This document shows positions 9,680 through 64,000 of a stretch of 64,000 nucleotides of DNA, in pieces. The stretch lies in contig MHAR01000060.1 of the NCBI GenBank assembly GCA_001803045.1, positions 1 to 64,000 on the forward strand, given 5' to 3'. The position numbers and the translations under genes are program-made. The stretch's first letter is position 1, and the number at the start of each line of letters is the position of its first letter. Below the pieces are notes generated by a model. That model was not told the DNA's origin and did no database searches. It was given only the letters and a program-made list of their open reading frames with translations. The DNA is from Ignavibacteria bacterium RIFOXYB12_FULL_35_14 (lineage in GTDB: Bacteria > Bacteroidota > Ignavibacteria > Ignavibacteriales > Ignavibacteriaceae).

Positions 9680-11128
9680 ATGAGCGTAACTGAAACTTCA
9701 AAGATTGAAGAATTAGCAAATAAAGAGTATAAATACGGTTTTGTAACCGATATAGAAACTGAAAGCCTACCAAAGGGACTCAATGATGAGATCATAGGTA
9801 AACTTTCGGCAATAAAGAAAGAACCCCCTTTCATGCTTGAGTGGCGGCTGAAGGCATATCGGCATTGGCTTACTATGGAAGAACCTCATTGGTCGAATGT
9901 GAAATACTCACCAATAAATTACCAAGACTTAAGCTACTACTCAGCTCCTAAGAAAAAGCCTCAGCTCAATAGCCTTGACGAGGTTGACCCTGAACTGGTA
10001 AGAACCTTCGAAAAACTTGGAATATCGCTAGAAGAGCAAAAGCGGTTATCCGGCGTTGCAGTTGACGCTGTGTTTGACAGCGTTTCTGTAGCTACAACAT
10101 TTAAAGAAAAGTTATCTGAATTGGGAATTATTTTTTGTTCAATGTCTGAAGCCATTCAAAATCATTCAGACTTAGTTCAGAAATATTTGGGAAGTGTAGT
10201 GCCATATACCGATAACTTCTTCGCTTCGCTTAATTCAGCAGTATTTAGCGATGGATCTTTTGTTTACATACCTAAAGGCGTCCGCTGTCCGATGGAACTT
10301 TCAACTTACTTTAGAATCAACGCAGCAAATACAGGACAATTCGAACGAACTCTAATAATTGCAGATGAAGGCGCTTATGTCAGCTATCTGGAAGGATGTA
10401 CTGCTCCAATGAGAGATGAAAATCAGCTTCATGCTGCTGTAGTTGAACTGGTTGCTTTGGAGAATGCAGAAATAAAATATTCAACAATTCAAAATTGGTA
10501 TGCTGGAGATAAAGAAGGTAAAGGCGGAATATTTAACTTCGTTACAAAACGTGGCGCATGCAGGGGAAAGAATTCCAAAATCTCCTGGACACAAGTTGAA
10601 ACGGGTTCGGCAATTACCTGGAAATATCCAAGCTGTATTTTGCTAGGCGATAATTCTATTGGTGAATTCTATTCAGTTGCATTAACAAACCATTATCAGC
10701 AAGCAGATACGGGAACAAAGATGATTCATCTTGGAAAGAACACTCGGAGCACAATTATATCAAAAGGTATTTCAGCAGGATTCAGCAATAATAGCTATCG
10801 CGGTTTAGTTAAGATTGTTAAGAAAGCTGAGAATGCAAGGAATTTTTCTCAGTGCGATTCTCTTTTGCTCGGTGACAAATGCGGTGCTCATACTTTCCCC
10901 TACCTTGAAATTAATAATCCGAGCGCACAGATTGAACACGAGGCAACCACATCCAAAATTGGTGAAGATCAAATATTCTATCTCAACTCAAGAGGAATAG
11001 CAACCGAAGATGCAATAAATCTAATTGTGAATGGATATTGCAAGGAAGTGTTCAAGGAGCTGCCAATGGAATTTGCAGTTGAAGCTACAAAATTATTGAG
11101 CGTTAGTCTGGAAGGAAGTGTGGGGTAA
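9680..11128 (+). CDS. sufB: Fe-S cluster assembly scaffold SufB
   Basis: Scaffold subunit of the SufBCD complex, on which new Fe-S clusters are built in the cytoplasm. It is a 482-aa protein with hallmark SufB segments: [20 protein letters not shown] near the N-terminus, [40 protein letters not shown] and, near the end, [14 protein letters not shown] and [19 protein letters not shown]. The length is normal for the family. It is the first gene of the suf operon and follows a Bacteroidota-type promoter. The ATG at 9680 is preceded by AGGAAAATC. Confidence 0.96.
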
Positions 11129-55917: not shown

Positions 55918-56098
55918 AATTTCTTACCGATTTTTTTACGCTAAAGAGATATTGAAATTATTGAGAGTGTAAGTAAAAGGTATTGGAGTAAATAACAAAA
56001 TTGAAGTTTAAGGTTGTAATCAATTGTTGAAATCTTAATCTGCTAGGTTTATTAACCTTTGTTTGAGGTTGACAGGTTATTAAATTTAATTTTACTTG

Positions 56099-56171
56099 TG
56101 CACCCTGCGGGACTCGAACCCGCGACCTGATGATTAAGAGTCATATGCTCTACCAACTGAGCTAAGGGTGC
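56099..56171 (-). tRNA. tRNA-Lys (anticodon CTT), reconstituted by the integrated element
   Basis: The 73-nt gene folds with acceptor GCACCCT/AGGGTGC, D stem GCTC/GAGC, anticodon loop CTCTTAA (anticodon CTT at 56136-56138), T stem GCGGG/CCCGC with loop TTCGAGT, and discriminator A. CCA is not encoded. The first anticodon-stem pair (27:43) is T:C, a mismatch. Everything 5' of position 40 lies within the 52-bp direct repeat, so this half is now provided by the element side. Confidence 0.95.
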
Positions 56172-56183
56172 GTGCAAAATTAA
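56132..56183. repeat. Left attachment site (52-bp direct repeat)
   Basis: Identical to 63740-63791. It runs from the 3' side of the anticodon stem through the 5' end of the tRNA and 12 bases into its promoter. Bases directly outside differ (t versus a before; g versus a after), which fixes the ends. Confidence 0.93.
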
Positions 56184-56205
56184 GAAAATTTGGAAGGTTT
56201 TGAAA
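56175..56205 (-). promoter_or_regulatory. Element-supplied promoter of tRNA-Lys
   Basis: On the minus strand TTTC (56202-56205) and TAATTTTG (56175-56182) are separated by exactly 19 bases; the -7 box ends three bases before the tRNA. The -7 box lies in the att repeat, but the -33 box belongs to the element. The original site at 63783-63813 has TTTG at the same spacing. Confidence 0.6.
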
Positions 56206-56253
56206 GCGGTTCTCAAGCGGCTTGTGAAATTAGACTTGATTCAAACTGAACAC

Positions 56254-56264
56254 TTTACTTAACA
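56254..56264. promoter_or_regulatory. Candidate integrase arm-type site (left)
   Basis: TTTACTTAACA lies 70 bases inside the left repeat. The same 11 bases occur at 63681-63691, 48 bases inside the right repeat, in the same orientation. Shared motifs near both ends are what arm-type integrase binding sites look like. Confidence 0.4.
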
Positions 56265-56313
56265 GTTTAAATAAGACTTTCAGCACTTCGATGAACATGA
56301 AAGGAGCTTTAAA

Positions 56314-57333
56314 ATGTTTCTATTCAAACGAGGTGCTATTTACCAGTTGGAATTTTTCGATGAGCAAGAGAATCGAATCAAGAGAGTCTCAACTAAAAGC
56401 AAAACGAAACCGGAAGCACTAAAATTTTTAACTGACTTCAGGAAACAACTCTCATGCAAACTTACCTTCAAATATATTTCTCTCAATCAATTCAGAGATG
56501 AATATTTAGAATATGTTTCAACATGCTTAACTAAAAATTATCATAAAAGCATAAATGTTTCCTTCCATTTTCTGTTTGATAAAATCAATAAAGACACTCC
56601 CCTAATAAGACTAAATGCAAAAGACCTTGAGAAATTATTGAGCATTAAGTTTCAAACTAATCCACATGTAGCATTATGCCACTATCGAAACTTAAAGAGT
56701 GCTTTTGGGAAGGCAGTTAAGTGGAATTACCTAACAAATAATCCCCTAAAGAGTTTTAGCTTACCAAAACCACCTCAATTGCATCCATTATTTATAAACA
56801 AAGATGAGTTGGATTTAATACTTATCAATGAATCTGACAATAATCTAAAAGACTTTTACTCTTTCGGTTTTTATACCGGTATGAGATTAAGTGAGATAAT
56901 AAATCTAAGATGGTGCTCTATTGACCTACAGCAAAGAGAAATTAAGGTTCAAAACACGAAGGAATTTACAACCAAAAATAAAAGGGATAGAGTTATCCCG
57001 ATAAACGACACACTTTATCAAATTCTGTCTGAAAGACTGCCAAAGATAATTTCAATAAATGAGAGTGAGTATGTTTTTTCCAACGCTAATGGTTTTAGAT
57101 ATTCACCGTTCTATATATCGAAAAAATTTAAGAGGGCTGTTAGAGAAACTAAACTCAATGACAAAATACATTTCCATTCATTAAGGCATAGCTTCATTTC
57201 AAATTTAATTCAGAGAGGATGTTCTATTTATGTTGCTAAGGAATTAGCGGGACATTCTCAAATATCTGTAACAGAGAATTACGCACACTTACGACCAGAG
57301 AACCTTAGAAACGCAGTAGAACTATTGAATTGA
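56314..57333 (+). CDS. int: Tyrosine recombinase (integrase) of the element
   Basis: Catalyses integration and excision at tRNA-Lys. It is a 339-aa protein: an N-terminal arm-binding region with FFDEQENRIKRVSTKSKT (~13-50), a SAM-like core-binding domain (~55-150), and a catalytic domain with all key residues: R191 (TGMRLSEI), a hairpin Lys in TTKNKRDR, H288 and R291 (HSLRHSF), H314 (LAGHSQIS) and the nucleophile Y323 (TENYAHL). AAAGGAG precedes the ATG. It reads away from the tRNA, in the usual position just inside attL. It looks intact, so the element may still be mobile. Confidence 0.95.
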   Translation: MFLFKRGAIYQLEFFDEQENRIKRVSTKSKTKPEALKFLTDFRKQLSCKLTFKYISLNQFRDEYLEYVSTCLTKNYHKSINVSFHFLFDKINKDTPLIRLNAKDLEKLLSIKFQTNPHVALCHYRNLKSAFGKAVKWNYLTNNPLKSFSLPKPPQLHPLFINKDELDLILINESDNNLKDFYSFGFYTGMRLSEIINLRWCSIDLQQREIKVQNTKEFTTKNKRDRVIPINDTLYQILSERLPKIISINESEYVFSNANGFRYSPFYISKKFKRAVRETKLNDKIHFHSLRHSFISNLIQRGCSIYVAKELAGHSQISVTENYAHLRPENLRNAVELLN

Positions 57334-57609
57334 GGTATTCAGCAAGCTCATTAGTTTTAGTTTATTAAATGCTCCCACACGCACAGAAACAGCCCTACAA
57401 GGGGTTTTATTATAGGTTTGACTAATTACCTTAGCAAGATAAAATATGAAACGAGGGGTGTATGACCAGACAGGGTAGGTTATTTTTATAAATCGGGCTA
57501 AAGTGCAAATTAGGATAGAGGCGAGAGACGTTATTTAGCAAAGTTGGGATTTTCATCTTAAATATTTTTTCACTTGTTTTGTAGTGCTACTAACTTTTAT
57601 TAGGGCAAA

Positions 57610-58725
57610 ATGAAACCGGACTCATATCTTCTATCGTCTTTCAAAATTGGAATAATAATTTTTATTCCCATAGCAATTATCATTTCTTTATTCCCGCCAT
57701 TTAATTGGGATATTCCCGCAAATCGCAAAGTTCATCATTATAATGCGATTGAAGATTTATTACCATTAAAAAAATATTCTTTGATTTTTGATTTTAATAA
57801 AAAGCATTTCATTTGGGGAGAATATACATTTCAAAACGAATATTATGATAAAGACTCTGTTAAAGTAAAAAATGTGTTATCAGACGCAATAAATTATAAT
57901 ATAATCAAGACTGGGATAGATTCTTTTTTTTCTTATGACTTGTTTAAATTCAAATTGTATAAAAAGCATGTTGTTGCTAAATCAAAAGTCGGAAAAATAA
58001 AGATATATGAGGCAACTTGGGAAGATTATGGCGGAATTACGCCCCCAGAAATAGTTCCACAAACCGATTGGTTACAGCGCAGAATTGCTGGTGAGCCCGA
58101 AGTTCCATTTCTTAAACAAACGAGGGGTGAAAATCCGTTAGGAATAACAGGCGACACAAGAAAATATAATTATAAACAATTAAAAGACGTGCAACTCACA
58201 ACTTCGCAACAACATAAAACAGAAACCTTTAGCGAAAGGCAAAAAGGCGGAATTACCCCAATTCAGGAGATGAGCAAATTAGATAAAATATTAAAAAAAC
58301 AACGTAAAAAGTGGATTTATAGTTGGGAAGATTTTGGCGGAATTACACCTCAACCGATACAAGAAAGAAGAAGAGTCTGGACGCTTGAAGATGTTGGTGT
58401 AATTACGCCCCAACCCGAAAAAAAATATTGGACACCCGAAAACTTCGGCGGCTATACACCCCAAACCGATATAACAAACGCTGAGAATTATTCAGAAATA
58501 AAAAACGAATATTTACAGAATCCCAAACTATGGGAGGTCAAATATCAAAAATCTTTTGACAGCACTAAGGCATTCAGTTTATACGACATTGTAAAACCAC
58601 ATTATTATTTATTAGAAAGAGAACTATTGTTTTCAGAACTTTTTGTCAATTACCTATTAGCATTTTTCTTATCAATTGGTTTGGGACTTCTATTTGTTAA
58701 AGTTAAAGAACGTAAAAGAAATTAA
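57610..58725 (+). CDS. Two-helix membrane protein with GGITPQ repeats, unknown function
   Basis: A 371-aa protein that I cannot assign to a family. One helix lies at residues 13-29 (IGIIIFIPIAIIISLF) and another near 342-362; the ~310 residues between would lie on one side of the membrane. They hold five degenerate repeats of a W-x-E-[DN]-x-G-G-I-T-P-[QP] unit: WEDYGGITPP (137-146), KGGITP (212-217), WEDFGGITPQ (239-248), WTLEDVGVITPQ (257-268) and WTPENFGGYTPQ (274-285). The spacing is irregular and the linkers are charged. It is the first cargo gene after the integrase, with 276 bases between them. A possible role in surface or phage interaction is speculation. Confidence 0.7.
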   Translation: MKPDSYLLSSFKIGIIIFIPIAIIISLFPPFNWDIPANRKVHHYNAIEDLLPLKKYSLIFDFNKKHFIWGEYTFQNEYYDKDSVKVKNVLSDAINYNIIKTGIDSFFSYDLFKFKLYKKHVVAKSKVGKIKIYEATWEDYGGITPPEIVPQTDWLQRRIAGEPEVPFLKQTRGENPLGITGDTRKYNYKQLKDVQLTTSQQHKTETFSERQKGGITPIQEMSKLDKILKKQRKKWIYSWEDFGGITPQPIQERRRVWTLEDVGVITPQPEKKYWTPENFGGYTPQTDITNAENYSEIKNEYLQNPKLWEVKYQKSFDSTKAFSLYDIVKPHYYLLERELLFSELFVNYLLAFFLSIGLGLLFVKVKERKRN

Positions 58726-58868
58726 TACTTGCAATTTTAATTTTAACACTACTATTAAGATTTTAATAATATTTTCATAAAGATAATGTTTTGTTTACTA
58801 AGTAATCTTTATTGGTTAAATTAAGAGAGTATCTAATTCATTCCTTGAAAGTATTCGGAATATGAATT

Positions 58869-59303
58869 ATGAAAGATAAAATTCTAAAAATATTTGTTTT
58901 GTTATTTTCTTCAATATTATTTATTTCTTGCGCATCTTCCGAAGATTTGTCACGTTCTGAAAATCAAATCAAAGATTTAGACTCCAAAGTAAATTCTCTC
59001 CAACAAGAAGTAGCATTTCTAAAAGGGAAAATAGAATCTATTGAAAAAATATTGATGAATATTAATAATCAAATTATCCAGTTACAATTAATGCCAAATA
59101 TGGTTACTCCAGATAATACTTCTACTGAACAAGATTTACTAAATTTAAAAACAAATACAAATTCAAAAACCAAAACAAGTATTGATAAAAAATCATCCTC
59201 TGAAACAAGTTCTGGTAGATGTCAAGCTATTACACAAAAAGGAACACAGTGTAAAAGGAATGCAAAACCTGGTAGTAAATATTGTTGGCAACATCAGAAA
59301 TAA
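58869..59303 (+). CDS. Coiled-coil lipoprotein with C-terminal Cys/His zinc-type motif (DUF5763-like)
   Basis: A 144-aa protein with a lipoprotein signal (lipobox FISC, C21), a heptad-rich coiled coil (~28-75: KDLDSKVNSLQQEVAFLKGK), an S/T/K-rich linker, and a compact end in which C118, C128, C139 and H142 can bind zinc (RCQAITQKGTQCKRNAKPGS, then KYCWQH). The last motif resembles the DUF5763 family, which is usually found in other contexts without a function assigned. It is expected at the envelope. It is followed after six bases by the next exported protein. Confidence 0.75.
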   Translation: MKDKILKIFVLLFSSILFISCASSEDLSRSENQIKDLDSKVNSLQQEVAFLKGKIESIEKILMNINNQIIQLQLMPNMVTPDNTSTEQDLLNLKTNTNSKTKTSIDKKSSSETSSGRCQAITQKGTQCKRNAKPGSKYCWQHQK

Positions 59304-59315
59304 AGGGAGTTGAAA

Positions 59316-59810
59316 ATGATTAAAATATTTTCGTTATTATTTGTCTTTATCACAATAACATCAATTTATTGTCAAAAACAATATATTGATTTTTACGGAA
59401 CTAAAATTAGGTTAGGAATGACTGAAAAAGAATTAAAAGATTTAATCAAATTCCCTTACGAATTTGGGATGTGGGAGAATTCTGAGTCGGGTGTGGTGGA
59501 AGATAAGCTGACTGGAAAGTTTGTGTTAAGTATTGGATTTGAAAATAAACGTGTAAGTTTTGTTAGTCGACATTGGGCTGACCAAAATGAAGATACATCA
59601 ATGGACTTTGCAAAAAAGATTTACTCTTTATTTAAAAAAGTAGAAAGTGAAGGTTTAGAGAATGCTATAATTAACACAGGTTCAAATAGTGAGGCAGAGT
59701 ATAATGTTTATCAAATATGGTTTGTCTATGGAGATAAGAAAATAACTTTATCTATTACAGAGGGTGAAAATAAAAATGACGTGTCACTAACAGAGCAACT
59801 TTATAAGTAG
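59316..59810 (+). CDS. Small exported protein of unknown function
   Basis: A 164-aa protein with a Sec signal peptide (MIKIFSLLFVFITITSIYCQ). The mature part is a mixed alpha/beta domain with IRLGMTEKELKDLI and an SIGFENKRVSFVSRHW strand pair. The LGMTEKEL segment recalls BamE/SmpA-like domains, but I would not assign that. The ATG at 59316 follows AAGGGAG, better than the in-frame TTG at 59310. It is co-transcribed with the lipoprotein gene, so the two may work together at the envelope. Confidence 0.6.
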   Translation: MIKIFSLLFVFITITSIYCQKQYIDFYGTKIRLGMTEKELKDLIKFPYEFGMWENSESGVVEDKLTGKFVLSIGFENKRVSFVSRHWADQNEDTSMDFAKKIYSLFKKVESEGLENAIINTGSNSEAEYNVYQIWFVYGDKKITLSITEGENKNDVSLTEQLYK

Positions 59811-59834
59811 GGAAACTTACCAACGAGATTTAAA

Positions 59835-60542
59835 ATGAAAAAAAGTAATAATTCTGATGATTTGAAAAAATTCATTAAAAAAATAGACCTTAATAACAAA
59901 GTAAATCTGATAAAATGGGAAAATTCAGGTGAGGTCTGGGAAAGAGAGTTATTTAAAATGACTAAAAGTTTATATAAGCAAGAGATTTTACCTGTATTAT
60001 TGGAAAAAATTGAAACGAATGATTTTGATCGAGATTTTATTTTCCATAATATTTTTCTACAAATATTAGTATCAGCAAGGTATTTGTTAGAGGTGAATGA
60101 CACTTACATTTTTGAATATAAAAATGTAGAAAATTATCATGAGCTTGATATTTTACAACAAATAATTTCAAAACGAAAAATTATTTTGAAAAAGGAGGAA
60201 GCAGACTTTTTTATTAGATTTCAACTAATAGTCCCAGCAACATTGGTGCATTATCTACAAATAAATAATTCAAAATGGTTAGCAGAATATATGACTAAGC
60301 ATAAAGAACTTTTCACAGCTGAAGCATACTACAATACTCAACTAAAAATACTTCCTAAACAAAAAACTCAGTTCGAAAAAGAAATTCTTATTTCAAAAAT
60401 CAAAGAAGTAAAAGAGAAGTTGATAAAAACTAATCCAGGCAAAAAAGCCACTGTAAGAGCAACCGCAATTGCTCTTAAAATTCCAGATACTACTTTTAGG
60501 GAGAGATTGAAAACTTATAAAATTAGTTTTGAAGAAATATAA
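59835..60542 (+). CDS. Unknown helical protein with C-terminal helix-turn-helix
   Basis: A 235-aa, mostly helical cytoplasmic protein without signal peptide. Residues ~200-235 (KKATVRATAIALKIPDTTFR) form a likely psq/Fis-type helix-turn-helix, so it may bind DNA. The first 190 residues show no family that I know. It begins 24 bases after the exported protein gene, and its stop is directly followed by the iteron array. A role as regulator or replication initiator binding those repeats is possible but unproven. Confidence 0.6.
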   Translation: MKKSNNSDDLKKFIKKIDLNNKVNLIKWENSGEVWERELFKMTKSLYKQEILPVLLEKIETNDFDRDFIFHNIFLQILVSARYLLEVNDTYIFEYKNVENYHELDILQQIISKRKIILKKEEADFFIRFQLIVPATLVHYLQINNSKWLAEYMTKHKELFTAEAYYNTQLKILPKQKTQFEKEILISKIKEVKEKLIKTNPGKKATVRATAIALKIPDTTFRERLKTYKISFEEI

Positions 60543-60666
60543 TTCACGGAAGTTCACGAATTAAAAGTTCACGAAAATTCACGGAATTATTTTAACCTAA
60601 TTTAAACGCTCCAAAACCTTCTTATCTATTCAAATTCACAATTTTATTTTCACGAAAATTAACGGA
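60543..60666. repeat. TTCACGRA iteron-like array, candidate replication origin
   Basis: Perfect TTCACG[GA]A copies start at 60543, 60553, 60568, 60578 and 60649, with a degenerate TTAACGGA at 60659. All are in the same orientation; the first four are 10, 15 and 10 bases apart, so pairs lie one helical turn apart. The A/T-rich flank and the replication cassette directly downstream fit an origin. Confidence 0.6.
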
Positions 60667-60673
60667 TTACAGT

Positions 60674-60812
60674 TTGCATACATAATGCTGTATGCCAATC
60701 ATCAACACAAACATAAAATTGAAAAGTGAATTAAATTTAGCGGTGGGAAATACCCTTCATTCCATTGGTGGTTGCATACGCCCACCGCTGCATTTGGGAG
60801 AGATGTATGCAA
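60674..60812. promoter_or_regulatory. Paired TTGCATAC/GTATGC inverted repeats over the replication operon start
   Basis: TTGCATAC (60674-60681) and GTATGC (60690-60695) form a palindrome. A second pair, TTGCATAC (60773-60780) and GTATGCAA (60805-60812), brackets the ribosome site, and its right arm contains the start codon at 60807. A second inverted repeat, AGCGGTGGG (60739-60747) / CCCACCGCT (60781-60789), is nested between them. This looks like an operator or an mRNA structure controlling the operon. Confidence 0.55.
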
Positions 60813-61193
60813 ACACAAATCAGAATTTCCGGCAACTCGATTTACTGGAAAACTTTCAAATGGGGTGAAATCATCCCCGAAAAATCTACTTTCGGAGTAG
60901 TTCCCCGCACAGAGAAAAACATCTTCAAAATGTTTAACGGTCTCGGACTCAATGAAGAAATACTTTTCATGCTCCGAGATTTACGGATAAAATTTATTGA
61001 AGTTCCGTTTAATGGTTCAATTCTATCAACTACAGTTGAGAAATGGATTAGAGAAGGAATACGAAGCAGATATGTAAGCGATAAGGTAGACAGGCAGATC
61101 ATCCTACCAATAACTAAGATTAGTTTAGCTGAATCAAATCTGAACTTGCAAGCACCAAGCCAGTTGAATCTTTTTCAGGGAATGCAACAATGA
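60807..61193 (+). CDS. Unknown protein with C-terminal beta-clamp-binding-like motif
   Basis: A 128-aa protein, first in a coupled operon with the replication ATPase. The ATG at 60807 follows GGGAG at 60797-60801; a longer in-frame opening at 60765 has no ribosome site. The body (KTFKWGEIIPEKSTFGVVPR; VEKWIREGIRSRYVS) matches no family that I know. The tail ends SQLNLFQGMQQ, in which QLNLF (119-123) fits the QLxLF motif used to bind the DnaN sliding clamp. Binding of the host clamp is inference. It overlaps the next gene by ATGA. Confidence 0.6.
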   Translation: MQTQIRISGNSIYWKTFKWGEIIPEKSTFGVVPRTEKNIFKMFNGLGLNEEILFMLRDLRIKFIEVPFNGSILSTTVEKWIREGIRSRYVSDKVDRQIILPITKISLAESNLNLQAPSQLNLFQGMQQ

Positions 61194-61465
61194 AACCAGA
61201 AAACCTTGAAACGTTAAATAAACTATATGAGAGTTTGAAAATTTTATGTTATCAGTTCCCTGTCTTCATTTCAGATTTTGATATTGATTTCATTAAAAAA
61301 TCAGAAATTGAAAAATTAGTATTTAATCAAGTTCAGACAGAGCTTAAAATTTGTTTATCAAACCTTTTCAACACTTCCGATTTAATATTCAATATTATCA
61401 ATTCAGATGATGAAGGAGAAATAAATTCTTTACTTAATTCTATAAATACGGATGGTGTATTATGA
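61190..61465 (+). CDS. Small unknown acidic protein in the replication cassette
   Basis: A 91-aa, mostly helical, acidic protein (ETLNKLYESLKILCYQFPVF ... DDEGEINSLLNSINTDGVL). I recognise no domain. It overlaps its upstream and downstream genes by four bases each, which argues that it is real and made in proportion to the replication proteins. It could be a partner or loader of the ATPase encoded next. Confidence 0.6.
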   Translation: MKPENLETLNKLYESLKILCYQFPVFISDFDIDFIKKSEIEKLVFNQVQTELKICLSNLFNTSDLIFNIINSDDEGEINSLLNSINTDGVL

Positions 61466-62757
61466 TTGATAACAACAAACGTAAATCCTTAAAGGGATAT
61501 GAATTAAAAATCTTATCCAGTATGCTGAACGATTTGAATTTAATTCCAGAAATAGCAGGCGTATTTAGTGAAGATAGTTTTTCAGATAATCACCGAGAAC
61601 TATTTATAAAAATTTGTGAGCTTGGCAAAAATCAAAAAGATTCTACTCTTTTGATTGATGACTTATGCAAGCTGAATATAACAAATTGGAAATATCGAGA
61701 ACTACAAAAACTCAAAGACGTTGGAAAATCATTTACTAAAGATGATGTTAAAAGTGCTGTTAAGTATCTTTTAAATGCAAGTTTACCATTCGAGCAAGAT
61801 AAAAATTTACTATCAACTGTAAACCAAAACAACGGACATATAAAACTTGTAAACGCAAGGGAGCTTCAAACTATGGAACTAAAACCAATCAATTGGGTAA
61901 TTAAAGATTTACTTCCAGAAGGTCTATTGATACTTGCAGGCAGACCAAAAATAGGAAAATCTTTTTTAGCATTGAATATGAGCTTGGCGATAGCAAATGG
62001 CGGACATGCCTTAGGATACTTCAGGGCAAATAAAAACTCCGTCCTATACATTCCTTATGAGGATAATTACAGACGTTTACAGGATAGAATAAATCGGATG
62101 TTAGCAGAGGAACATTATAAAGAAGCACCTTCAAATTTATTCATTCCAAAAGATTGCGATTTTCCTAAGATGACAATTGAAGGGATAGACAGTCTCGGAA
62201 AGATTTTAGATGATAATAACGATATAAAATTAGTTGTCTTAGATACGCTTGGACGGTCTATTGTAAGAAGCAACAAACGAAATGCTAATCAGTTTCAAGA
62301 TGAATATGATTTCCTGTCTGTAATCCAAAAAATAGCTTTACAGAGGCATATAAGTATTTTATTAGTTCACCACACAACTAAAATGAGATATGAAGATGTT
62401 TTTGACCAAGTTCTCGGAACTACAGGTTTAACAGCTTCACCGGATTCCTTGATGTTACTTAGTAAGGATTCAAATAAGGAATTCAGCTTAGCTATAACAG
62501 GCAGGGACATTGAGGAAAAAGAATATACTCTAAAGTTTCAAAATTGCATTTGGATTATAGAGGGTGAAAAAGGCAAAACCACCACACCGGAACGTGAAGA
62601 AATTATTTCTCTATTCCTACAGCAGAACCGACCACTTAAAACAAAAGAAATTGCTGAATATTTAGGTAAGACGGAAACCAATGTATGTAACATGCTAAAG
62701 AAAATACCCGAAATAGTGAAAGTTAAATATGGTGAATATGTGTTAAATACTAAGTGA
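61462..62757 (+). CDS. RepA/DnaB-like replicative ATPase (DnaB-N, AAA_25, winged helix)
   Basis: A 431-aa protein likely to replicate the element. Residues ~8-105 resemble the DnaB N-terminal domain (KGYELKILSSMLNDLNLIPE ... SFSDNHRELFIKI). The RecA-like core has Walker A GRPKIGKSF (160-168), Walker B LVVLDTLGR (D261) and ISILLVHHTTK, the RepA/AAA_25 form. A winged helix at ~380-431 (NRPLKTKEIAEYLGKTETNV) could bind DNA or proteins. The DnaB-N plus RepA-type core plus wing combination is more typical of phage and satellite helicases than of chromosomal DnaB. Confidence 0.82.
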   Translation: MIDNNKRKSLKGYELKILSSMLNDLNLIPEIAGVFSEDSFSDNHRELFIKICELGKNQKDSTLLIDDLCKLNITNWKYRELQKLKDVGKSFTKDDVKSAVKYLLNASLPFEQDKNLLSTVNQNNGHIKLVNARELQTMELKPINWVIKDLLPEGLLILAGRPKIGKSFLALNMSLAIANGGHALGYFRANKNSVLYIPYEDNYRRLQDRINRMLAEEHYKEAPSNLFIPKDCDFPKMTIEGIDSLGKILDDNNDIKLVVLDTLGRSIVRSNKRNANQFQDEYDFLSVIQKIALQRHISILLVHHTTKMRYEDVFDQVLGTTGLTASPDSLMLLSKDSNKEFSLAITGRDIEEKEYTLKFQNCIWIIEGEKGKTTTPEREEIISLFLQQNRPLKTKEIAEYLGKTETNVCNMLKKIPEIVKVKYGEYVLNTK

Positions 62758-62758
62758 A

Positions 62759-62820
62759 AGTGATGTAAGTAGTGAATGTTTGTAATAAAGATTCATCAGT
62801 TTCATTACTTACACTACACT
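62759..62820. repeat. Imperfect inverted repeat downstream of the ATPase gene
   Basis: AGTGATGTAAGTAGTG (62759-62774) pairs with CATTACTTACACTACACT (62803-62820) apart from a two-base bulge, one mismatch and one wobble. It begins directly after the stop. It is followed by ATTAAC (62821-62826) / GTTAAT (62838-62843). It may be a terminator-like structure or a binding site. Confidence 0.5.
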
Positions 62821-62919
62821 ATTAACAAAGTATTTTCGTTAATGAAGAAATGACTTTGATTTCATAGCAGCCAAATAAATAGAACAATATTGAATAAAAA
62901 TAGAATGAAAGGAATAGAA

Positions 62920-63267
62920 ATGCCATTCAAAAAAGGAAAAGAAAAAACTGGCGGAATTAGTAAAGGACAAAAACACAGGAAGACATTGCTTAGAGAAAAA
63001 CTCGGAGTGAAAACAGTCAAGAAAATTGATGAGTTTGCTGAAATGTTAATAAGGAACTGGTTTGAGTTTCTTTCGACTGATGATAATACTGTTAGACTTA
63101 CAGCGACAAAGGAATTATCAAAGTTTGTATTTCCAACTAAGAGACAGATTGAATCAACACTAAAACCGATGAGTATTGAAGATTTTATAAGAGGAATGAG
63201 GGAAGGTAAACTGAATCTTTGCGAGGGAGATGATGAAAATGAAGTGGAAAGATTAGGAACGTCTTAA
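62920..63267 (+). CDS. Small basic protein, possible terminase-small-subunit-like (DUF5681-like)
   Basis: A 115-aa protein starting MPFKKGKEKTGGISKGQKHR. The glycine- and lysine-rich lead followed by a helical body (LREKLGVKTVKKIDEFAEML; TVRLTATKELSKFVFPTKRQ) resembles DUF5681/small-terminase-like proteins of phages, which usually begin with a K-G-x-S-G-N-P-x-G-R-P tract. The match is partial. AAAGGA before the ATG at 62920 decides the start over TTG at 62890. A small-terminase-like gene in an element without capsid genes would suggest hijacking of a helper phage; that is inference. Confidence 0.5.
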   Translation: MPFKKGKEKTGGISKGQKHRKTLLREKLGVKTVKKIDEFAEMLIRNWFEFLSTDDNTVRLTATKELSKFVFPTKRQIESTLKPMSIEDFIRGMREGKLNLCEGDDENEVERLGTS

Positions 63268-63333
63268 ATAAATAATGTTTGGTTAAAAGTTTAGTGTTGA
63301 CTTTGGTAAATAGAACAATTAATTTTACAATAA

Positions 63334-63516
63334 ATGAAAACAGATATTTCTAAACTAAAAACAATTCCCAATTTTGGAAGGATGAAAGGTATATCTAAAC
63401 AAAGGATTTATATCTTAGTGAGAGATGGAAAGTTTGATACCTTAGAAATTGATGGTGTGAAATTTATAGTGCTAAATGAAAAAGCACTAAATTATAAAAA
63501 GCAATTTCCCCAATAA
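63334..63516 (+). CDS. Excisionase-like small helix-turn-helix protein
   Basis: A 60-aa protein with a MerR/Xis-type winged helix (IPNFGRMKGISKQRIYILVR, then DGKFDTLEIDGVKFIVLN). Its size and its position at the end of the element suggest a recombination directionality factor or a small regulator. In contrast to the common int-xis pair it lies at the opposite end from the integrase. The ribosome site is weak. Confidence 0.65.
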   Translation: MKTDISKLKTIPNFGRMKGISKQRIYILVRDGKFDTLEIDGVKFIVLNEKALNYKKQFPQ

Positions 63517-63579
63517 ATAAGTTTAATAATTAAAACTGTCTAAATACCACGATGAAAAAAGAATTAACATTTGAAGAAA

Positions 63580-63637
63580 GCCTGAGCGGTTTATTAAGGT
63601 GTGGTAACCTTGACAGTTTCCGTTTGGGCTTTTTTTG
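63580..63637 (+). terminator. Strong nested-hairpin terminator at the right end of the element
   Basis: GCCTGAGCGG (63580-63589) pairs along its full length with CCGTTTGGGC (63620-63629), using three G-U pairs. An inner stem AAGGT/ACCTT (63596-63600 / 63607-63611) sits inside, and seven T follow. It should stop transcription leaving the element toward attR and the OsmC gene. Confidence 0.75.
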
Positions 63638-63680
63638 TTTTGTTCTTTTGATGTTGCTGGAAGTGAATTTCACTTAACGA

Positions 63681-63691
63681 TTTACTTAACA
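63681..63691. promoter_or_regulatory. Candidate integrase arm-type site (right)
   Basis: TTTACTTAACA, identical to 56254-56264. Just to its left are a further ACTTAAC (63672-63678) and a near-palindrome AAGTGAATTTCACTT (63661-63675). Confidence 0.4.
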
Positions 63692-63739
63692 CTTCACGAT
63701 TTTCTTTCACTTTTGGGCGGGATTCTCAATTTACCAATA

Positions 63740-63791
63740 GATTAAGAGTCATATGCTCTACCAACTGAGCTAAGGGTGCGTGCAAAATTAA
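63740..63791. repeat. Right attachment site with orphan 5' half of tRNA-Lys
   Basis: Identical to 56132-56183. It holds tRNA positions 1-40 on the minus strand and lacks the 3' half, so it is not a functional tRNA gene. Confidence 0.93.
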
Positions 63792-63813
63792 ATATTTCCG
63801 CCTGGCTTTCAAA
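63783..63813 (-). promoter_or_regulatory. Original tRNA-Lys promoter, now facing into the element
   Basis: On the minus strand TTTG (63810-63813) and TAATTTTG (63783-63790) are separated by exactly 19 bases, a full match to the TTTG-N19-TAnnTTTG pattern, three bases before the tRNA 5' end. It now drives only the orphan half tRNA and antisense RNA into the element. Confidence 0.65.
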
Positions 63814-63934: not shown

Positions 63935-64000
63935 ATGCCCGTAAGAAAAGCTAATGCAGAATGGAAAGGAAATCTACTAAATGGAACCGGAACAATTTCT
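63935..64000 (+). CDS. OsmC-family peroxiredoxin (N-terminus, partial)
   Basis: The ATG at 63935, preceded by AAAGGAA, opens a frame reading MPVRKANAEWKGNLLNGTGT to the window end. The A-x-A-x-W-x-G-x-L-x-x-G-x-G sequence is the usual start of OsmC/Ohr-type thiol peroxidases, which reduce organic hydroperoxides. The catalytic cysteines lie outside the window. Confidence 0.8.
   Translation, partial: MPVRKANAEWKGNLLNGTGTIS

Follow-up and report, generated by a model that had tools for sequence, protein, structure and literature searches.

SXT/R391 ICEs insert at the 5′ end of the protein-coding gene prfC and provide it with a new 5′ end and a new promoter. The dusA-specific islands likewise give a protein gene a new promoter (PMC4482086). 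Among tRNA islands, the Islander catalogue lists 159 with 5′ fragments next to 3760 with 3′ fragments (3919 altogether) (PMC4383910). In archaea, pTN3-like elements take the 5′ half of tRNA-Leu (PMC5495485, PMC8371274). Transcription of the tRNA then reportedly relies on the integrase promoter, an arrangement described as rare in bacteria (PMC8371274; PMC5495485). What becomes of the promoter in an insertion that replaces the 5′ end of a tRNA gene can be read from the locus described here: the promoter that the element appears to bring is native-like and, in some cases, seems to stem from another genus.

The window, i.e. the whole stretch of 64,000 nucleotides analysed here, belongs to an Ignavibacteria genome of 4.10 Mb in 95 contigs that is rated 100% complete. 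According to ARAGORN and Rfam, tRNA-Lys(CTT) is the only tRNA gene in these 64 kb. The only direct repeat of at least 35 bp is a 52-bp repeat with two identical copies, and a phage_integrase-family integrase is located inside the segment that they bound. The features of the locus are:

56098..56171, minus strand: tRNA-Lys(CTT), intact (ARAGORN; Rfam RF00005, 73.9 bits)
56132..56183, minus strand: attL copy of the 52-bp repeat, tRNA +40 to −12, −7 box included (repeat search)
56132..63739 (to 63791 with the second repeat copy): integrated element of about 7.6 kb (repeats; empty site in genome G001)
56175..56182, minus strand: −7 box TAATTTTG, tRNA side (read from the sequence; same place conserved in relatives)
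56184..56231, minus strand: part of the promoter region that lies beyond the repeat and comes from the element (about −13 to −60); most similar to the DNA upstream of native tRNA-Lys in another genus, g2
56202..56205, minus strand: −33 box TTTC, element-supplied, 19 nt upstream of the −7 box (read from the sequence; profile score with spacer; g2 natives)
56254..56264, plus strand: putative left integrase arm-type site TTTACTTAACA (sequence)
56314..57333, plus strand: tyrosine integrase, divergent from the tRNA (Pfam Phage_integrase 1.7e-33; phrog_1 8.5e-62)
61462..62757, plus strand: AAA_25 / DnaB-like ATPase of the element (profile match 8.2e-27)
63334..63516, plus strand: 60-aa ORF, putative excisionase-like helix-turn-helix protein (predicted from its sequence; weak phrog_4149 match)
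63681..63691, plus strand: putative right integrase arm-type site TTTACTTAACA (sequence)
63740..63791, minus strand: attR copy of the repeat, the stranded native tRNA 5′ half with its −7 box (repeat search)
63783..63790, minus strand: stranded native −7 box TAATTTTG (agrees with the native promoter of the same-genus genome G001)
63810..63813, minus strand: stranded native −33 box TTTG (read from the sequence; same-genus promoter comparison)
63935..64000, plus strand: start of an OsmC-like gene just past the second repeat, 87% identical to the G001 gene bordering tRNA-Lys

A sequence-only reading of this DNA had proposed that an element entered the 5′ half of the tRNA gene, moved the native promoter to its far end and carries a replacement. 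The underlying geometry is exact: both repeat copies comprise 12 upstream bases and 40 bases of the tRNA gene. The 3′ part of the gene (56098-56131) is native chromosome and the 5′ part (56132-56171) lies inside the repeat and is supplied by the element. The minus strand has TTTC (56205-56202)-N19-TAATTTTG-CAC-tRNA on the tRNA side and TTTG (63813-63810)-N19-TAATTTTG-CAC-half tRNA on the far side, so that the strings and positions reported earlier all hold. The displaced fragment is the tRNA 5′ end; it lies upstream of the tRNA and has the same orientation as the gene, as in the class of 5′-fragment islands. A search for the empty site, as had been suggested, found it in G001, a genome of the same genus in which tRNA-Lys(CTT) directly adjoins the OsmC-like gene. 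The G001 promoter gttttgaaagccatgtgaaaataat-TAATTTTG (also given as gttttgaaagcca...TAATTTTG) matches the stranded sequence at 63783-63813 and not the element side. The native promoter is thus the one at attR, and what now precedes the tRNA is DNA of the element. The segment 56132-63739 is thereby confirmed as a tRNA-targeted integrative element with a tyrosine recombinase, for which excision and integration activity is predicted.

The integrase ORF is intact and lies 142 bp away from the tRNA. Apart from the ATPase, the remaining ORFs of the element are small genes without clear family. The TTTACTTAACA sequences near both ends, adjoined at either end by more ACTGAAC/ACTTAAC copies, are probably integrase arm-type sites. 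A 371-aa protein without family match (57610-58725) has, by eye, a hydrophobic stretch at each end and contains repeated (E/D)(D/N)(Y/F)GG(I/Y)TP motifs. No defence function was recognised in the cargo, which gave weak matches only. None of the 164 genomes of the order or 391 genomes of the class encodes an integrase with more than 50% identity that would indicate a close orthologue of the element, and IMG/VR yielded one distant integrase only. Relatives of the ATPase, found in four other genomes of the order, are only 41-48% identical. The nearest named relatives of the integrase occur in Melioribacteraceae, Ignavibacteria and a MAG labelled Chlorobiaceae. Beyond the repeat, the right end of the element (63730-63748, minus strand) reads on as TCTATTGGT, as in an alternative anticodon-stem allele of tRNA-Lys(CTT) (e.g. 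G001, L068-L072), and therefore attP seems to be a hybrid of two tRNA-Lys(CTT) alleles. The stranded native promoter and tRNA 5′ half (63740-63813) are still aimed into this right end and may give rise to antisense transcription of the half-tRNA and element genes.

The native tRNA-Lys(CTT) promoter is conserved as TTTG-N19-TA(A/T)TTTTG in 29 relatives. The TTT of its −33 box is found in 24 to all 29 of them depending on the position, and the G in 21. It agrees with the published Bacteroidetes consensus of TTTG at −33 and TAnnTTTG at −7 (PMC7366714), and the same architecture is present upstream of tRNA-Lys(TTT) and a Met(CAT) tRNA in the host genome. From the end of the −7 box to the mature tRNA 5′ end, 3-5 nt were counted in all relatives examined (L044-L072, L223) and 4 nt in nearly all, a fixed distance that suggests a nearly leaderless tRNA-Lys(CTT) transcript. 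Because of its position right next to the gene, the −7 box is included in the repeat, and the −33 box and the spacer are left outside. The element-side −7 box TAATTTTG conforms to the TAnnTTTG of the Bacteroidota primary sigma consensus. Compared with the Bacteroidota TTTG at N19, the −33 box is TTTC on the element side and TTTG on the stranded side. Since TTTC is the −33 box in all four genus g2 genomes examined, it is a natural variant.

A scoring matrix was built from 28 non-redundant native tRNA-Lys(CTT) promoters, and only the 33 columns outside the repeat were scored. The element side reached 12.85 compared with a native median of 8.83 and exceeded 82% of the natives. Within the same element, 2 of 15,038 windows attained this score, the site itself among them; at 84 related loci, integrase-proximal DNA contained 2 such windows among 19,824. 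Taken alone, the −33 box TTTC-N19, in which the consensus G is missing, is weak (p = 0.029); the rest of the element-supplied region, including the T-tract AAATTTTCT adjoining the −7 box, gave p = 0.0004. It is this spacer T-tract, which the sequence-only reading had passed over, that carries most of the promoter signal. The earlier claim that the promoter supplied by the element has the same boxes at the same spacing therefore stands, and on better grounds than TTTC, as the full profile is significant and the −33 box alone is weak. Element DNA resupplies what looks like a working copy of the tRNA-Lys(CTT) promoter.

Integrase loci were collected from the order (80) and the rest of the class (19), and their tRNA junctions were read. 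In this integrase family, about 75 insertions restore the 3′ half of the tRNA and about 10 the 5′ half. The latter reside in tRNA-Lys(CTT) (window genome, G163 and G024), Arg(CCG) (contig 23 of the window genome), Gln(CTG) (G077), Arg(TCG) and Thr(CGT) (both G239), Thr(CGT) (G340), Arg(CCT) (G351) and Ser(CGA) (G408). The second insertion of this type in the window genome (L116; G000 contig 23, 93966-95207), in tRNA-Arg(CCG), has a 46-bp repeat from three upstream bases to +43, and its integrase is 50% identical to that of the window. In most cases repeats of the 3′ type begin at tRNA position 28-33 and those of the 5′ type end at 39-45. Most repeats of the two types thus overlap only in the anticodon stem-loop, with a few extending further, and this overlap makes a crossover at the anticodon loop likely. 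Further stranded tRNA-Lys 5′ halves with native-type promoters occur in L264 (about 9703-9752) and L266 (3419-3464) of G077 and G062; no far ends to match them could be located in the draft assemblies, and they are probably additional 5′-type insertions split by contig breaks. In the integrase tree, the type switches at least four times on well-supported branches and seven times by parsimony. One integrase family therefore restores either half of the tRNA at the same crossover region. Such mixing makes the evolution of site use testable, and finders restricted to 3′ fragments would miss about one in eight insertions of the family (10 of 85).

Promoters were checked in all ten 5′-type insertions and were clear on the element side only for the Lys and Gln insertions. 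The stranded attR sequence at tRNA-Lys of G163 corresponds to the native promoter of G160 from the same genus (score 84). On the element side, the sequence is TTTA-N19-TATTTTTG, which agrees with the profile at a level reached by 64 of 15,810 windows, itself counted. The repeat at tRNA-Gln of G077 spans only six upstream bases, so both boxes are outside it in element DNA, placed where the native ones are (p = 0.0015). In G024, near-identity at tRNA-Lys reaches as far as −54, so that the entire promoter is part of it. Other insertions in tRNA-Lys(CTT) thus keep TTT(N) at the conserved spacing (TTTA in G163, TTTG in G024), a pattern whose absence had been named as evidence against an adapted promoter. 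The Arg, Thr and Ser insertions have no clear match to a tRNA-Lys(CTT)-type promoter on the element side, and their natives are mostly unclear as well. Judged by their sequences, related elements in tRNA-Lys and tRNA-Gln likewise resupply promoters.

No second tRNA-Lys(CTT) exists in the host genome, an intact copy of which, with this one silent, would have spoken against the proposal. To call the tRNA essential was nevertheless an overstatement, because tRNA-Lys(TTT) is present and can in principle read AAG by wobble, and because 5′-type insertions concentrate in such wobble-redundant tRNAs. Of the 5′-type insertions 9 of 10, and of the 3′-type ones 15 of 75, are in C34 tRNAs whose box is normally also served by a U34 tRNA (Fisher p = 2.6e-5, with insertions counted regardless of relatedness and too few phylogenetically independent pairs). 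Promoter replacement may be best tolerated where the tRNA is dispensable. A rival view holds that there is no adapted promoter at all, TTTC-N19 being a chance match in AT-rich DNA upstream of a weak or silent tRNA whose loss tRNA-Lys(TTT) compensates. The weak −33 box and the lack of a recognisable promoter in several other 5′-type insertions would fit such a view, as would the C34 bias, counted regardless of relatedness. It is at odds with the intact tRNA and with the fit of the whole region outside the repeat to the native profile far beyond chance, which recurs in G163 and G077, and we regard it as improbable.

The origin of the promoter was addressed by comparison with 43 native upstream regions. 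The promoter of the window element most resembles those of G030 and G083 (genus g2), with a similarity that extends to about −60. In G030 and G082, the site looks undisturbed, having the same neighbour genes and no integrase. For the element promoter of G163, the best match is genus g18, which belongs to another family, with a score above those of all 878 cross-genus native pairs; both g18 genomes share the same divergent neighbour gene. Most likely, the promoter was captured from the tRNA-Lys gene of another, earlier Ignavibacteria host, a suggestive and not a proven origin. Among native pairs from different genera, 0.5% score as high as the g2 similarity, and the same best score is obtained for about 2% of windows taken at random from the window element. 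As AT-rich DNA inflates such scores, capture from g2 is only suggestive. Moreover, the 52-bp repeat is of the host's own allele type and not of the g2 type, so that a simple capture of promoter and half-gene from g2 cannot explain everything. The earlier description spoke of an element adapted to keep the tRNA expressed; adapted may here mean that its promoter was captured from the tRNA-Lys gene of another host and not built anew. A related explanation is that attP acquired an extended segment from the tRNA-Lys locus of a host, the boxes being relics of this homology. The near-identity to −54 in G024 and the g2 likeness of the window element to about −60 speak for it. It overlaps with the preferred reading and differs on selection only, as the tRNA receives a promoter either way. 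The window element and G163 keep the promoter-profile columns while others differ, which speaks against it, and we consider the relic scenario rather unlikely.

The best explanation is an integrative element in the 5′ half of tRNA-Lys(CTT) that replaces the half-gene and brings a native-like promoter, to which we assign a probability of about 0.83. Recombination by the tyrosine integrase would have taken place in the only tRNA-Lys(CTT) gene, at its anticodon loop. By this event, the element would restore the tRNA 5′ half and strand the native promoter at its far end, and the 5′-restoring version would have to bring a promoter, likely taken from another Ignavibacteria host. Alternatively, read-through from element transcription might drive the tRNA, as proposed for the archaeal pTN3 integrase promoter (PMC8371274). 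This mode is described for pTN3-like elements and could fit relatives with an intact tRNA at the integrase-distal end. At the present locus, with an integrase that diverges from the tRNA and a native-like promoter that abuts it, we deem it highly improbable. Returning to the element-borne promoter, a more general version can be proposed, in which one Ignavibacteria integrase family repeatedly switches the restored tRNA half at one crossover, and the 5′ version transplants the tRNA promoter of another genus, so that expression of the host tRNA passes to the element, mainly in tolerant wobble-redundant tRNAs. We put this forward tentatively, its chances being slightly below even.

Several features of the locus have precedents. 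Like the window element, Islander 5′-fragment islands combine a tyrosine integrase, an intact tRNA with a displaced 5′ fragment in the same orientation and a repeat whose end lies at the anticodon region. A crossover at Islander site A, the anticodon loop, would be consistent with the end of the window repeat at +40 and with the overlap of 5′- and 3′-type repeats, which points to the anticodon stem-loop. In addition to what characterises that class, the replacement promoter of the window was resolved against the native ones of relatives, and 5′- and 3′-restoring members occur in one integrase family. The pTN3-like elements share an attB in the 5′ half, a common core of about 41 bp and a tRNA cut off from its original promoter. 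However, integration splits their integrase gene, in which attP is located, whereas the window integrase is intact and divergent, and their tRNA reportedly uses the integrase promoter, whereas that of the window has its own bacterial −33/−7 promoter. The dusA islands resemble the window element in that they insert at the 5′ end of a gene and provide a new 5′ end and promoter, but their target is a protein-coding gene and not a tRNA. Finally, classical tRNA 3′-end islands, including close integrase relatives (e.g. L074, L118 and L138), have the same integrase family and crossover region. They restore the 3′ half and keep the native promoter, in contrast to the window element, which restores the 5′ half. 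The insertion in the window is a well-resolved variant of a known minority class, the less common mirror image of 3′-end insertions.
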